From: Nocardia sp. NBC_00403
Lineage (GTDB): Bacteria; Actinomycetota; Actinomycetes; Mycobacteriales; Mycobacteriaceae
Length of the DNA stretch: 64,000 nucleotides
Assembly (NCBI RefSeq): GCF_036046055.1
Contig: NZ_CP107939.1
Coordinates: 930,001-994,000 of the forward strand
Direction of reading: 5' to 3'
Shown: in pieces, positions 8,253 to 28,741 of the stretch
How the letters are laid out: each line of letters begins with the position of its first letter
Position numbering within the stretch: the first letter of the stretch is position 1
Translations under genes and position numbers: made by a program
Notes under the pieces: generated by a model
Seen by the model: only the letters and a program-made list of their open reading frames with translations
Database searches by the model: none
Told to the model about the DNA's origin: nothing

Positions 8253-8496
8253 GATGTGTGCACAGTCCGGTTTGGTGACCGCCCCTCCGGTCGCCTAGGT
8301 TCGTCGCAATGTCATGAACAGACCAGCAGGAACGTCATGATTCGGTACCTTGCCGCAACGGTTGCTGGAACCCGCTGACGGCGCCCGCGAACGGTGGCAG
8401 CCGCACCCGCTGCTGCACGCCCAACGTGTCGGTACCCGGGAGTACAACGAGTCATCGATAGTGTGAATCCCGGTGGGGAAAGGACGGTCGAGTCTG

Positions 8497-11127
8497 GTGG
8501 CAGTCGTCGACGACCGCGGACACGCGGAATACTCCGAGCCGCCCGGCGAGGACTTCGGCAGGCAGCCTCCGCACGACCTCGCGGCCGAGCAGTCGGTGCT
8601 CGGCGGCATGCTGCTCAGCAAGGACGCCATCGCCGACGTCATCGAGGCGCTGCGGCCAGGAGATTTCTACCGTCCCGCCCACCAGGCCATCTTCGACACG
8701 ATCCTCGATCTATACGGCCGCGGCGAACCCGCCGACCCGGTGACCGTCGCCGCGGGCCTCGACCGCCGCGGCGAACTCAAGCGCATCGGCGGCGCCCCCT
8801 ACATCGTCACCCTCACCCAAACCGTCCCGACCGCCGCCAACGCCGGCTACTACGCCGAGATCGTCGCCGAGAAGGCCATCCTGCGCCGCCTCGTCGAGGC
8901 AGGTACCCGCATTGTCCAATACGGCTACGCGGGCGCCGACGGCCAGGACATCGCCGAGGTGGTCGACCGCGCCCAAGCCGAGGTCTACGAGGTCACCGAA
9001 CGCCGCACCACCGAAGACTTCCTCCCGCTCGAAGAACTCCTCCAGCCGACGATGGACGAAATCGACTCCATCGCCAGCCGCGGCGGCATCTCCCTCGGCG
9101 TCCCCACCGGCTTCACCGAACTCGACGAGGTCACCAACGGCCTGCACCCCGGCCAGATGATCATCGTCGCGGCTCGACCCGGCGTCGGTAAGGCACTCGC
9201 GCTCGACACCCCGCTGCCGACGCCCACTGGTTGGACCACAATGGGTGAAGTCCGTGTCGGTGACGAGCTCCTCGACGCCAAAGGCACTCCGACGCGCGTC
9301 GTCGCCGCAACCGACGTCATGTCCGACCGCCCCTGCTACGAGGTCGAATTCTCCGACGGCACAGTGATCGTCGCGGATGAGGAGCACCAGTGGCTCACCG
9401 AGACACGGGCATCTCGACGCTCTGCACAGCAGGCAGAGACCGGTCACAACGGATACCGCAATCAACGTACATTCGCAGCGGTTCGCACCACCGCGGACAT
9501 CGCGCGCACGTTGCGCTGCGAAACAGCCGACCGCAGGGTCAATCACTCGGTCGCCAACACGCGCGCTTTGCAACTGCCTGCACGCGAATTCCTGGTGCCG
9601 CCCTACACCCTCGGTGCCTGGCTCGGCGACAGAACGTCTGCTGCAGCACAGCTCACCACTGCGGATCCCGAAATCATCGCCTGCATCGAAGCAGAAGGGA
9701 TCGTTGCGATCCCGTCCCCATCGGCGTACTTGCGCTACCACCTGCAGCTACCCGCCGACGAGCCGATCATGCCCCGTGCGTGCGCAGTGTGTGGTAACGA
9801 GTTCGTCCCACACACCAGCGAGGTTCGTACCTGCGGTCGATCATGCGGCGGCAAAGCGCGCTTCCACTCCGCCCCTGTTGCGGCCCCGTCCTGTGCGCAT
9901 TGCGGTGGCCCCTCCATCGGACTTCGGCTGTGCCAGGCGTGCCGAAATAGTGTGGGTAGCGTGCAGGCTCGACTGCGGACCATCGGTGTGCTCGGCGACA
10001 AACACATCCCCATCGAATACCTGCGGTCTTCTGAGCACCAACGGCGGGCGCTGCTCGCGGGGCTGCTCGACACCGATGGAACCGTGACCAGCGGCGGCTC
10101 TGTTCAGTTCACGGTAACCAATGGGCGGCTATTCCTCGATGTGCAGGAGCTCGTGGTCAGTCTTGGATATCGCGGCCACGTTTCTACCAAGCGTGTCCAC
10201 GGCCGGTCCGAGAAATCATCAACCGCTTACACGATGACGTTCTCGACGGACGACGAAGTATTCGGGCTGTATCGAAAAGCGATACTGCACAAAGAGCGGC
10301 GTGCGAGTCGCAGTACGGCACGGTCCAGCTCGCGGTACATCGTGGACGTCCGCAGGATCGACAGCGTGCCGATGCGCTGCGTCGAGGTCGACAACGCCGA
10401 GCACTTATACCTGGCCGGACGAGCCATGGTGCCCACCCACAACTCCACGCTCGGCATGGATTTCATGCGCAGCTGCTCGATCAAGCACGGGCTGCCGAGC
10501 GTTATCTTTTCGCTGGAAATGAGCCGTACCGAGATTGTCATGCGTCTGCTCTCGGCCGAGGCGAAGATCAAGCTGGGCGATATGCGTTCCGGTCGGATGA
10601 GTGATGACGACTGGACCAAGTTGGCGCGGCGGATGAGTGAGATCAGTGAGGCGCCGTTGTTCGTCGACGATTCACCCAACCTCACCATGATGGAAATTCG
10701 AGCAAAGGCGCGTCGACTCAAGCAACGCCACGACCTGAAACTCGTTGTCGTCGACTACCTCCAGCTGATGACGTCCGGTAAAAAGGTCGAATCCCGACAG
10801 CAGGAAGTCTCGGATTTCTCGCGAAACCTGAAGCTGCTCGCCAAAGAACTCGAAGTACCCGTCGTCGCCATCAGTCAGCTGAACCGTGGTCCCGAACAGC
10901 GAACCGATAAGCGCCCCATGGTCTCTGACCTGCGCGAATCCGGCTCGCTCGAACAGGACGCCGATATGGTCATCCTGCTACATCGCCCCGATGCAATCGA
11001 ACGGGACGACCCACGGGGCGGCGAGGCCGATCTGATTCTCGGTAAGCACCGTAACGGCCCCACCGCAACCATCACTGTCGCGCACCAACTGCACCTGAGC
11101 CGGTTTGTGGATATGGCCCGCGGATAG
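8497..11127 (+). CDS. dnaB: Replicative DNA helicase DnaB precursor, containing an intein
   Basis: An 876-residue precursor; without the 417-residue intein DnaB has about 459 residues, the normal family length. The N-domain begins PPHDLAAEQSVLGGMLLSKDAI. The RecA-type ATPase has Walker A ARPGVGK-S (interrupted by the intein after K), the FSLEMS segment, Walker B LKLVVVDYLQLM, and the arginine-finger region near EQRTDKRPMVSDLRESG. It is the hexameric fork helicase that loads with primase. I chose GTG 8497 (AVVDDRGHAEYSE), which fits the mycobacterial N-terminus MAVVDD and has AAAGGA upstream; GTG 8473 would add 8 residues. Excision of the intein is required to make the Walker A loop. Confidence 0.95.
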   Translation: MAVVDDRGHAEYSEPPGEDFGRQPPHDLAAEQSVLGGMLLSKDAIADVIEALRPGDFYRPAHQAIFDTILDLYGRGEPADPVTVAAGLDRRGELKRIGGAPYIVTLTQTVPTAANAGYYAEIVAEKAILRRLVEAGTRIVQYGYAGADGQDIAEVVDRAQAEVYEVTERRTTEDFLPLEELLQPTMDEIDSIASRGGISLGVPTGFTELDEVTNGLHPGQMIIVAARPGVGKALALDTPLPTPTGWTTMGEVRVGDELLDAKGTPTRVVAATDVMSDRPCYEVEFSDGTVIVADEEHQWLTETRASRRSAQQAETGHNGYRNQRTFAAVRTTADIARTLRCETADRRVNHSVANTRALQLPAREFLVPPYTLGAWLGDRTSAAAQLTTADPEIIACIEAEGIVAIPSPSAYLRYHLQLPADEPIMPRACAVCGNEFVPHTSEVRTCGRSCGGKARFHSAPVAAPSCAHCGGPSIGLRLCQACRNSVGSVQARLRTIGVLGDKHIPIEYLRSSEHQRRALLAGLLDTDGTVTSGGSVQFTVTNGRLFLDVQELVVSLGYRGHVSTKRVHGRSEKSSTAYTMTFSTDDEVFGLYRKAILHKERRASRSTARSSSRYIVDVRRIDSVPMRCVEVDNAEHLYLAGRAMVPTHNSTLGMDFMRSCSIKHGLPSVIFSLEMSRTEIVMRLLSAEAKIKLGDMRSGRMSDDDWTKLARRMSEISEAPLFVDDSPNLTMMEIRAKARRLKQRHDLKLVVVDYLQLMTSGKKVESRQQEVSDFSRNLKLLAKELEVPVVAISQLNRGPEQRTDKRPMVSDLRESGSLEQDADMVILLHRPDAIERDDPRGGEADLILGKHRNGPTATITVAHQLHLSRFVDMARG
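9193..10443 (+). other. Class 3 intein with LAGLIDADG endonuclease and two zinc-finger-like motifs, in DnaB
   Basis: The inserted segment runs from GCA 9193 (Ala1, after GVGK) to AAC 10443 (Asn417), followed by Ser+1 (STLGMDF). It lacks the Cys1/Ser1 of standard inteins. It has the class 3 set: Trp67 in block B (EEHQWLTET), Cys396 in block F (MRCVEVDNAEHLYLAG) and Thr415 in VPTHN. The central part is a homing endonuclease: LGAWLGDRTS at 140-149 (Arg where Gly is usual) and LLAGLLDTDG at 287-296. Between them are C197-x2-C200-x13-C214-x3-C218 and C234-x2-C237-x8-C247-x2-C250, two probable zinc-binding modules. Splicing is inferred from motifs. Confidence 0.9.
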
Positions 11128-11135
11128 GTGCATTT

Positions 11136-11180
11136 TGTAGGGTCTCAATGAAAATGGCCAAATCTCAATGAATATGGCCA
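11136..11180 (+). repeat. Insertion-sequence-end-like repeat, copy 1
   Basis: TGTAGGG is followed by two 20-bp direct repeats with core TCTCAATGAA-ATGGCC (at 11143 and 11163). It begins 9 nt after the dnaB stop codon. The TG start and tandem sub-repeats resemble ends of IS21-type elements, but no transposase is present. The same start, TGTAGGGTCTCA, recurs exactly at 15486 and 24901, and nearly at 19299. The 240 bp from here to the LysR gene hold nothing I can support. Confidence 0.6.
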
Positions 11181-24997: not shown

Positions 24998-27900
24998 TCA
25001 GCTCGGGAGGTCGTCGGCTGATGCGGATTCGTTGCGGGACAGTGTGATTCCGAGATTGGCGGCGGTGCGATCGAGCTCGTCCTCGTCGCCATGGTGCAAT
25101 TCGATGGCGGAGCCGGCAGAGAGGACCTCGACGTTGAGGCACAGGGACTGGAGTTCCTTGAGCAGCACCTTGAACGACTCCGGGATGCCCGGCTCCGGAA
25201 TGTTCTCGCCCTTGACGATCGCCTCGTAGACCTTCACGCGGCCGACGACGTCATCGGACTTGATGGTGAGCAGCTCCTGCAGCGTGTAGGCGGCGCCGTA
25301 GGCCTGCATGGCCCAGCACTCCATTTCGCCGAAGCGCTGGCCACCGAACTGCGCCTTACCACCCAGCGGCTGCTGGGTGATCATCGAGTACGGGCCGGTC
25401 GAACGGGCGTGGATCTTGTCGTCGACCAAGTGGTGCAGCTTCAGGATGTACATGTAGCCGACCGCGACCGGGTACGGGAACGGCTCGCCGGAGCGGCCGT
25501 CGAATAATGTTGCCTTACCGTCTGCCCCGACCATGACCTCGCCGTCGCGGTTGGGCAGTGTGGACGCCAGCAACCCGGCGAGTTCTTCCTCACGGGCACC
25601 GTCGAAAACCGGTGTCGCGAGATTCGTATCCGGACCCGCCGACAACAACTCCCCGGGCAAACGCTTCGCCCAGTCCGGACGATCACCGTCGGTGAGCTGA
25701 ATGTTCCAGCCTGCCTTGCCGATCCACCCCAGATGGGTCTCCAAGATCTGACCGATATTCATACGACGCGGCACACCATGGGTGTTCAAAATGATGTCGA
25801 CCGGGGTGCCGTCGGGCATGAACGGCATGTCCTCGGTGGGGAGGATCTTGCCGATAACACCCTTGTTGCCGTGCCGACCCGCGAGCTTGTCACCATCCTG
25901 GATCTTGCGCTTCTGCGCCACATACACGCGCACCAACTCGTTGACACCAGGAGGCAAATCGTCGTCGTCCTCACGCGAGAGCACCCGGATACCGATGACC
26001 TTGCCGGACTCACCGTGGGGCACCTTCAACGAGGTGTCACGCACCTCGCGGGCCTTCTCACCGAAAATCGCGCGCAGCAGCCGCTCCTCCGGGGTCAGCT
26101 CGGTCTCACCCTTCGGGGTGACCTTCCCGACCAGGATGTCGCCGTCACGAACCTCCGCACCGATGCGGATGATGCCACGATCATCGAGATCGGCCAGCAC
26201 CTCATCGGAGACGTTCGGGATATCCCGCGTGATCTCCTCGGCACCCAACTTCGTATCACGAGCATCGATCTCGTGCTCCTCGATGTGGATCGAGGTGAGG
26301 ACGTCCTCTTCCACGAGACGCTGCGACAGAATGATCGCGTCCTCGTAGTTGTGGCCCTCCCACGGCATGATCGCGACGAGCAGGTTCTTGCCCAGCGCCA
26401 TCTCACCGTTCTCGGTGCACGGACCATCAGCGAGCACATGCCCCTGCTCGACCCGCTGACCCTCATCGACGATCGGCCGCTGGTTGGCACACGTGCCCTG
26501 GTTCGAACGCGCGAACTTCCGCATCCGGTAGGACTTGCGAGTGCCGTCATCGGCCATCACGGTGATGTAATCGGCCGAAACTTCCTCGACCACACCGGAC
26601 TTCTCATTGACGACGACGTCGCCCGCGTCGACGGCGGCACGCAACTCCATACCGGTGCCCACGATCGGGGACTCCGACCGGATCAACGGCACCGCCTGAC
26701 GCTGCATGTTCGCACCCATCAGGGCACGGTTGGCGTCATCGTGCTCGAGGAACGGGATCATCGCGGTCGCCACCGACACCATCTGACGCGGCGACACATC
26801 CATGTAATCGACCTCAGCAGCCGAAACGAACTCGACCTCGGAGTTCTTGCGACGCACCGCGATTCGCGCAGCAACCAAGCGTCCCTCGGCATCGAGCGGC
26901 TCGTTCGCCTGCGCCACCACATGCAGGTCTTCCTGGTCGGCGGACAGGTAGTCGACCTCGTCGGTTGCCTTGCCCTCGATCACTTTTCGGTACGGCGTCT
27001 CGATGAAACCGAACGGGTTGACCCGCGCGTACACCGACAGACAACCCATCAGCCCGATACTCGGACCTTCGGGCGTCTCGATCGGACACATTCGGCCGTA
27101 ATGGCTGTAATGCACATCGCGGACCTCGAGACTGGCGCGTTCCCGACTCAGACCACCCGGCCCGAGCGCCGACAGGCGACGTTTGTTGGTCAGACTCGCG
27201 AGCGGGTTCCGCTCATCCATGAACTGCGAGAGCTGGGAGGTTCCGAAGAACTCCTTGATCGCGGCGACCACCGGGCGGATATTCATCAGCGTCTGCGGCG
27301 TGATCGCCTCGACGTCCTGAGTCGTCATCCGCTCGCGGACCACGCGCTCCATGCGCGACAGTCCCACCCGCATCTGGTTCTGGATCAACTCGCCGACGGT
27401 GCGCACCCGACGATTACCGAAGTGGTCGATGTCGTCGACCTCGACCCGAACCTCGATGCCACCCGGCGCGGTCATCACCCGATCACCCGCGTGCAGACGC
27501 AGCAGATATTCGATGATCGTGACGATGTCTTCCTCGGTGAGCACCGGTGACCCGATGACTTCGTCGGTATGGATGCCGAGCTTCTTGTTGATCTTGTAGC
27601 GACCGACGCGCGCCAGGTCGTAGCGCTTCTCCTTGAAGAACAGGTTCTCCAGCAAGGTCTGCGCGGACTCCTTGGTCGGCGGCTCACCCGGGCGCAGTTT
27701 GCGATGGATATCGAGCAGCGCCTCATCGGTGCCCGGTGTGTTGTCCTTCGCCAGGGACGTCGTCATGATCTCGGAGAAACCGAACCGCTCGGTGATCTGT
27801 GCACCGGTCCAGCCGAGCGCCTTGAGCAGGACTGTCACGGGTTGACGGCGTTTGCGGTCGATGCGAACGCCGACGGTGTCGCGCTTATCGATGTCGATTT

Positions 27901-28495
27901 CCAGCCACGCGCCACGCGACGGGATGACGCGCACGCTGTGCAGACTTTTTTCCGTGGCCTTGTCGACGGTGCGATCGAAGTAGACACCCGGCGAACGCAC
28001 CAACTGCGAGACAATGACGCGCTCCGTGCCATTGACGACAAAGGTGCCTTTGTCGGTCATCATCGGAAAATCACCCATGAAGACCGTCTGACTCTTGATC
28101 TCACCGGTGTTGTTGTTCATGAACTCAGCGGTGACGAACAGCGGCGCCGCGTAGGTCATGTCCTTGTCTTTACATTCCTCGATCGAGGCCTTGACCTCCT
28201 CGAAACGGGGCTCGGAGAGCGTCAAAGACATCGTTGCGGCGAAATCCTCGATCGGGCTGAGCTCCTCGAGCACCTCCGCCAATCCGCCGACGAGTGAGCT
28301 GCCGCGCGCCGCTGCCCGTTCGCGCCAGGCCGGCGCCCCGATCAACCATTCGAACGAATCGGTCTGGACATCCAACAACCCCGGAATATCGAGGGGCTCA
28401 CGGAGTTTGGCGAACGAGACCCGCTTCGGCACCCCGGAGATTCCGGTATCGACGGGTTTTCCGGCATTGACCTTGGTCTGACTCGAGACTGCCAA
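24998..28495 (-). CDS. rpoB2: RNA polymerase beta subunit, rifampicin-resistant paralogue (RpoB2 type)
   Basis: 1165 residues, full length, with all beta-subunit regions in order: [11 protein letters not shown], the fork and rifampicin pocket, [34 protein letters not shown], and the C-terminal [19 protein letters not shown]. The rifampicin region differs from the sensitive actinobacterial form: (E. coli numbering) Q517E, N518R, S522A, H526N, G544S, P552Y, N568S, I572M and S574C. His526 is a drug-contact residue whose change gives resistance (Asn codon at 27185-27187). No rpoC follows, so this is a second copy, as known in Nocardia. TTG 28495 has GGAAGGA upstream and matches the mycobacterial start. 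It would replace the normal subunit in RNA polymerase. Confidence 0.93.
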
Positions 28496-28741
28496 GATGC
28501 GTCCTTCCAGCACCTCGCGCCGCCCACGCGTTCGCGCGGTCGTCACGGTATCTGCTTGTCCTGTGGGCTGTATTTCACATTGCGCACCGTGTCGGCCGCT
28601 GCCCGAACATGACTCGACAACAACGGGTAGAAAATGACACGCAGACAGTGCCACTTTCTACAGTCATTTCGTATTTCGAGAGTTGGACAGCACGCGCCCC
28701 GGCGCGAAGTCCCAAATTACACCCGAATTCGACCGATGTCG

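Follow-up and report, generated by a model that had tools for sequence, protein, structure and literature searches.

The dnaB gene in a 64,000-nucleotide (nt) stretch of the Nocardia sp. NBC_00403 genome (contig NZ_CP107939.1, positions 930,001–994,000 of the forward strand; hereafter the window, in whose numbering coordinates are given) carries a 417-codon insert in its P-loop. From its features and those of its relatives, the insert is probably a class 3 intein of full length with the potential to be mobile, and a conserved eight-cysteine module within it is probably part of its homing endonuclease.

The dnaB open frame (8473..11127, + strand; start codon not settled) encodes 884 residues including the intein, and the match to the NCBIfam DnaB family (TIGR00665) spans the insert with an E-value of 2.6e-155. 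The P-loop motif GVGK ends at 9192 and is followed by the insert (9193..10443, + strand), which is in frame and stop-free, starts with ALALDTPLP, ends with MVPTHN and is directly followed by STLGMDF. The 417 codons between GVGK and STLGMDF, with an Ala start and a THN end, had already been described in an initial annotation of this DNA and were recovered exactly by the frame reading. The same annotation treated the insert as nothing more than a splicing element and overlooked the LAGLIDADG endonuclease, the eight-cysteine module and Cys48. Besides the frame and phmmer matches, the boundaries were defined by the empty site of the sister genome G047 (L128), where the P-loop is uninterrupted and the C-extein protein is 100% identical. 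The intein and the DnaB C-extein each gave a single match in the source genome. Several other genomes of the genus encode intein proteins that match named Nocardia records exactly, among them L039 and L002 (N. colli). A chance insert or a misread frame was ruled out by the stop-free frame, the alignment of both ends to solved inteins in the PDB and the precise empty site. The first C-extein residue, Ser+1 (10444..10446, + strand), corresponds to the second nucleophile and to the P-loop serine once spliced, as described for its relatives (PMC7360933, PMC8557812).

The N-terminal splicing part comprises residues 1–75 (9193..9417, + strand) and contains Ala1, Cys48 (9334–9336), Asp62, His65 and Trp67 (9391–9393), while the C-terminal part comprises residues 373–417 (10309..10443, + strand) with Cys396 (10378–10380), Thr415 (10435–10437), His416 and Asn417. 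In a phmmer search against the PDB the top matches were DnaB inteins, namely 6rix_A (E 8.4e-45) and 6riy (E 4.1e-44), both of which we take to be the M. chimaera DnaB1 intein, and 6bs8 (E 8.6e-42). Both intein ends were aligned in these matches, for 6rix_A with residues 1–79 and 383–417 of the query. The class 3 triplet is defined as Trp B:12, Cys F:4 and Thr G:5 (PMC5222942), and the initial annotation had reported its presence here; we read it as Trp67, Cys396 and Thr415, aligned to the solved class 3 inteins. Residue 1, an Ala, is not a nucleophile, and the block B His65, the penultimate His416, the terminal Asn417 and Ser+1 are all in place. Each of Ala1, Cys48, Asp62, His65, Trp67, Cys396, Thr415, His416 and Asn417 is found in 79 of 79 distinct full-length copies, a set that includes the window copy and 28 more distant ones from the taxonomic class of the host (29 loci of that class, with L189 and L209 omitted from the alignment); identical proteins were counted once in this and in the 53-copy, 113-intein and catalytic-acid sets below.

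When full and mini forms were pooled and duplicates counted, the triplet was in position at 121 of 122 loci, in a parse that leaves aside L013, L031, L085, L124 and L126. It is not in position in L125, and the last two residues of L123 are RN rather than HN; these two are divergent second dnaB genes in the Nocardia genomes G026 and G079, carrying the mini form next to an intein-free main dnaB. Since every defining sequence feature is present and kept among relatives, membership of the window intein in the class 3 DnaB P-loop inteins is supported, as is its kinship with the DnaBi1 type, with which it shares the insertion point (empty-site comparison) and sequence relatedness (phmmer). A class 1 or class 2 intein was ruled out on sequence by Ala1 and the complete triplet.

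Class 3 splicing at the DnaB P-loop site is already known, and three mini-inteins of class 3, of which two occupy this very site, were shown to require the block F Cys (PMC5222942). By analogy to this family, Cys396 would attack the Lys–Ala1 peptide bond and take up the N-extein, which would then pass to Ser+1, with the cyclization of Asn417 releasing the intein; an acyl shift would finally join GVGK to STLG and restore the P-loop. Until then DnaB would be unable to form a normal ATP site, in line with the assumption that a P-loop intein blocks ATP binding until its removal (PMC6195587). A further cysteine, residue 109 in the linker (9517–9519), is kept in 71 of the 79 full-length copies.

The region between the splicing parts, residues ~80–370, would constitute a LAGLIDADG endonuclease cutting intein-free dnaB at the P-loop codons, whose repair would copy the intein in. 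Motif 1 (YTLGAWLGDRTS; residues 137–152, 9601..9648, + strand) retains the catalytic-type Asp146, and motif 2 (LLAGLLDTDGT; residues 287–297, 10051..10083, + strand) the catalytic-type Asp295. The second half of the domain (residues 276–371) scored above the Pfam cut-offs for LAGLIDADG_3 (28.4 bits, cut-off 22.5) and Hom_end (24 bits, cut-off 21.1), and a profile of 23 copies matched PI-SceI over residues 264–411 with an E-value of 1.7e-9. Asp146 is present in 76 and Asp295 in 78 of the 79 copies. In one clade, of which we read eight copies (L241, L243, L244, L247, L249, L253, L256, L257; inteins of 486–501 residues), an extra stretch of ~80 residues lies between block B and motif 1.

We analyzed the selection acting on these parts by the ratio of nonsynonymous to synonymous substitution rates (dN/dS) in 46 Nocardia copies, based on 62 close pairs out of 1035. 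The two splicing parts gave ratios of 0.096 and 0.100 and the endonuclease parts ratios of 0.083 and 0.115; the module was at 0.131, the linker at 0.164 and the exteins at 0.028 and 0.014. Splicing domain, endonuclease and module are thus all under purifying selection, and the similarity of the values indicates that selection preserves the endonuclease and the module much as it does the splicing domain. These data bear on an alternative in which the window intein is a decaying, immobile relic, its endonuclease killed by the replacement of Gly147 with Arg and its remainder en route to a mini-intein. Residue 147 is Gly in 77 of the 79 copies and Arg in only two, the window copy and L075, so that motif 1 here reads GDR instead of GDG (window 9623–9643), and decay is common, as shown by the minis, which make up 29 of the 84 parsed Nocardia copies. 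However, motif 2 is intact, as are the two catalytic acids and the eight module cysteines, and against its six nearest relatives the window copy shows dN/dS values of 0.093–0.110 for endonuclease and module, similar to 0.085–0.108 for the splicing parts. We therefore regard a relic as doubtful, although it is the alternative to which we give the most weight.

Between the two LAGLIDADG motifs, residues 197–250 (9781..9942, + strand) form a double zinc-ribbon-like module with the pattern C-x2-C-x13-C-x3-C-x15-C-x2-C-x9-C-x2-C, delineated by cysteine conservation, spacing and profile matches. A first set of 53 distinct copies, each 404 residues or longer, retained all eight of these conserved, evenly spaced cysteines without exception, and in the 79-copy alignment they are present in 631 of 632 cells; the only loss, of Cys247 in L212, occurs in a copy also devoid of Asp146. 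Within the first finger all three spacings, and likewise the last spacing of the pattern, are identical in 79 of 79 copies. A profile of the module matched phrog_1333 (unknown function; E 8.7e-8) and phrog_1271 (HNH endonuclease; E 1.1e-4). The score for Pfam DZR_2 was 23.1 bits for the module alone and 16.6 bits within the whole intein, under the gathering cut-off of 27, and for this reason we do not file the module as DZR_2 despite its double-zinc-ribbon-like appearance. Searching the PDB with the module yielded nothing firm, the best match (E 0.0032) being assembled from weak pieces. We infer that this module would most likely bind two zinc ions.

Among 246 genomes of the taxonomic class of the host, the 30 module-profile matches with E-values up to 1.2e-11 all fall at dnaB inteins, and weaker matches comprise two dnaB inteins with the second finger as well as scattered short ones elsewhere. 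In 113 distinct inteins with an endonuclease region, three of them from phages or prophages, both fingers are present in 79, only the second in six and none in 28, the latter including all three phage or prophage inteins. On a tree built without the module columns, these three states required 20 changes, compared to a shuffled mean of 30.9. Module-free copies are repeatedly nested among module bearers, which are also found on the deepest of the bacterial branches. The simplest reading of this pattern would be one gain followed by many losses, where the change counts themselves do not distinguish the two directions and long branches lead to the phage inteins.

A catalytic acid is lost in 9 of 25 module-free copies versus 4 of 79 module-bearing ones (Fisher p 0.0003), and the dN/dS of the endonuclease is 0.23 in module-free copies (15 pairs) versus 0.118 in those with the module (503 pairs). 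This higher dN/dS and more frequent catalytic-acid loss suggest that the module is part of the endonuclease; there it would most likely serve, with its two zinc ions, the stability of the fold or contacts to DNA. Alternatively, the module could act on splicing and not on homing, as a structural or sensing domain through which metal or redox state would be coupled to splicing. Such a role would agree with the near-complete retention of the eight cysteines as long as the module exists (631/632) and with their full presence in three of the four copies without a catalytic acid. It is at odds with the minis and module-less forms, which keep their splicing residues and hence do not need the module for splicing, and with L212, where the only loss of a module cysteine accompanies the loss of Asp146, leaving a role in splicing improbable in our view.

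To place the window intein among known systems, we compared it with several characterized elements. The DnaB inteins of M. smegmatis (DnaBi1) and M. leprae share with it the gene, the site, the splicing residues, Cys48 and Ser+1, and the chain sequence of 6bs8 is common to 6own, which PMC7360933 names as the structure of M. smegmatis DnaBi1. Both are described as minis without an endonuclease, in contrast to the window intein with its LAGLIDADG domain and eight-cysteine module, and mycobacterial DnaB-b inteins are likewise described as lacking endonucleases (PMC5050341). The M. chimaera DnaB1 intein, the best PDB match, uses a Cys-His-Thr-Trp active site (PMC7664689), and its solved chains of 145–146 residues contain neither an endonuclease nor a zinc module. 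The class 3 minis of DnaB studied as stress sensors have been described as endonuclease losers, and the full-length form of the present family may resemble their ancestor.

Phage terminases and a phage DnaB also contain class 3 inteins, and these have the block residues and a LAGLIDADG endonuclease in common with the window intein. The intein matched 491 phage records, all with less than 60% identity, and no C-x2-C was present in the 10 phage or plasmid copies that we read out of the larger matching set (L240 set aside), so that these 10 have no zinc module. In two Nocardia genomes we also observed class 3-like inteins in putative terminase-like genes, L124 (1380–4079, − strand) in G056 and L126 (1729–4338, − strand) in G036, as well as a gene with an intein-like insert in G083, L127 (1206–3386, − strand), which is presumably PhoH-like. 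Phage HNH endonucleases with zinc fingers are linked to the module by its match to phrog_1271, but differ in that the window intein has no HNH domain, its catalytic domain being LAGLIDADG. A further parallel is provided by yeast HO and WHO, LAGLIDADG endonucleases that derive from inteins and depend on zinc-finger units to cut (PMC7282813); there, however, the fingers are C-terminal and neither splicing nor exteins are left, whereas in the window intein the module lies between the motifs and the splicing residues are complete. HO and WHO were stated in 2020 to be the sole known intein–zinc finger fusions (PMC7282813). Our search of the open-licence literature by title and abstract start found no zinc finger inside an intein, which is not proof of absence, and a search by title retrieved no paper dedicated to a Nocardia DnaB intein. 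Within the reach of this literature search, a zinc-type module in the homing endonuclease of a class 3 intein seems to be a variant not described before. Should the module bind zinc, such inteins would combine complete splicing residues with zinc fingers inside their endonuclease.

We next determined the distribution of the intein in the main dnaB of 148 Nocardia genomes. It is present in 85, comprising 46 full forms, nine without a complete module, 29 minis and one at a contig edge (L085, unparsed), and absent from the P-loop site in 63, where absence in G026, G056 and G079 was judged by frame lengths. On an extein tree of 144 genomes, built without the second dnaB genes L123 and L125, the no-intein state required 51 changes (mean of the shuffles 46.2), the full form 40 (39.2) and the mini form 26 (26.7); the tree derives from dnaB itself and could be blurred by exchange within the gene. 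Across the dnaB tree, the intein forms thus show a scatter like that of random placement. The nearest neighbor of the window on this tree, G047 (99% support in the SH-like approximate likelihood-ratio test, 91% identity), is intein-free, and G007 and G117 differ at 21 of 1140 flank bases plus one whole 1212-nt intein. Distances between inteins track those between exteins with r values of 0.52–0.63 (46 full copies). Transfer among near relatives combined with frequent loss fits both the scatter and this correlation. A single genus thus offers full-length, partially stripped, mini and empty alleles of the same site, so that intein gain, decay and loss can be counted directly.

Mobility is supported by the precise empty sites in sister genomes, the scattered no-intein state and an excess of divergence up to 24 nt from the site in close pairs differing in the intein (permutation p 0.024, 0.001 and 0.018 at three distance cut-offs, in an exploratory 24-nt span set after inspection of the pairs). 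Besides the exploratory character of this span, several points weigh against a mobile intein with the module as part of its endonuclease. A test for a footprint in the 90 nt to either side of the site gave no signal (p 0.38), Gly147Arg in motif 1 may weaken the endonuclease of the window copy, and a search of the zinc-ribbon families with the module only gave matches that are all under the curated cut-offs. Moreover, both catalytic acids are kept in 16 of the 25 module-free copies, for which reason the module may be dispensable for cutting, and a comparison of module loss with catalytic loss in phylogenetically independent pairs had no power (eight pairs, with the catalytic state differing in about one). 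The footprint was also gone in the 0–15 nt bin alone at the loosest cut-off (p 0.39) and null in the 30 nt upstream at the tightest (p 0.28). Co-conversion of long flanks found no support in the 90-nt test.

A second intein site is located 168 codons downstream in Nocardia dnaB. The second intein accompanies 22 of 29 minis versus 9 of 55 endonuclease-bearing forms (p 1.4e-7; loci L094–L122 and others). Across 17 independent sister pairs of mini versus none, its presence was concordant in 9.6 and opposite in 0.4 (median p 0.004), and across 14 independent pairs among intein bearers concordant in 7.5 and opposite in 1.3 (median p 0.07). The DNA between the two sites shows excess divergence in pairs of mini-plus-second versus empty alleles (p 0.002), and also among mini-plus-second pairs themselves. 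With N-extein distance controlled for, P-loop intein and second intein distances were not significantly correlated in a partial Mantel test (r 0.154, p 0.14). Minis may move, or disappear, together with the neighboring second intein, the endonuclease-less form hitchhiking.

Besides homing, we considered control of splicing by stress. The oxidation response of a mycobacterial P-loop DnaB intein cysteine, to which the initial annotation had referred, is documented for M. smegmatis DnaBi1, where hydrogen peroxide forms a Cys48–Cys118 disulfide and inhibits splicing (PMC6195587). Zinc binds Cys118 of the same intein, with Cys118, Val119 and Tyr128 as ligands (PMC7360933), and reactive chlorine inhibits its splicing in a study that termed Cys48 non-conserved (PMC8557812). 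Cys48 and the catalytic cysteine, the two elements of this switch, are both present in all 79 full-length copies, Cys48 also in five of seven phage or plasmid copies, and the zinc-ligand positions correspond to Cys396, Val397 and Tyr406 (Tyr in 70 and Phe in nine of the 79). The published redox work used mini-inteins, however, whereas the window intein contains 12 cysteines, eight of them within the module. From this analogy, and with only one DnaB match in the genome, redox control of the window intein, as proposed in the initial annotation, is possible, with stress or zinc delaying splicing via Cys396 as reported for M. smegmatis; we rank it below mobility as the main function and consider it secondary here.

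One could go further and propose that the intein is mainly a post-translational stress sensor, in which a Cys48–Cys396 disulfide or zinc at Cys396 holds DnaB unspliced and replication pauses, and which the host keeps for that purpose. The invariance of both cysteines, the matched zinc-ligand positions and the inhibition of mycobacterial relatives by hydrogen peroxide, zinc and reactive chlorine would all agree with such a function. Every substitution of Cys48 tried in M. smegmatis, however, abolished splicing (PMC6195587), so that its conservation needs no redox role. Furthermore, the site is intein-free in 63 of the 148 Nocardia genomes and close sisters differ, showing that the intein is not needed for stress control, and the endonuclease, unneeded for a pure sensor, is selected like the splicing parts. 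A sensor as the main function is accordingly unlikely. Less likely still is the idea of two clocks in one polypeptide, with a zinc module that sets when the endonuclease is folded and active and zinc or oxidant at Cys396/Cys48 that sets DnaB splicing, for which we see only a slim chance; if true, metal and redox state would jointly decide on the replication of the cell and the movement of the element. The range of alleles in Nocardia allows the stress response of mini and full-length forms to be compared.

Elsewhere in the window, an RNA polymerase beta subunit gene (24998–28654, − strand) encodes 1218 residues with six Pfam Rpb2 domains; Nocardia has a second rpoB. Directly 3′ of dnaB, at 11143–11180, an 18-nt word (TCTCAATGAAAATGGCCA) is tandemly repeated with 94% identity at a distance of 20 nt.

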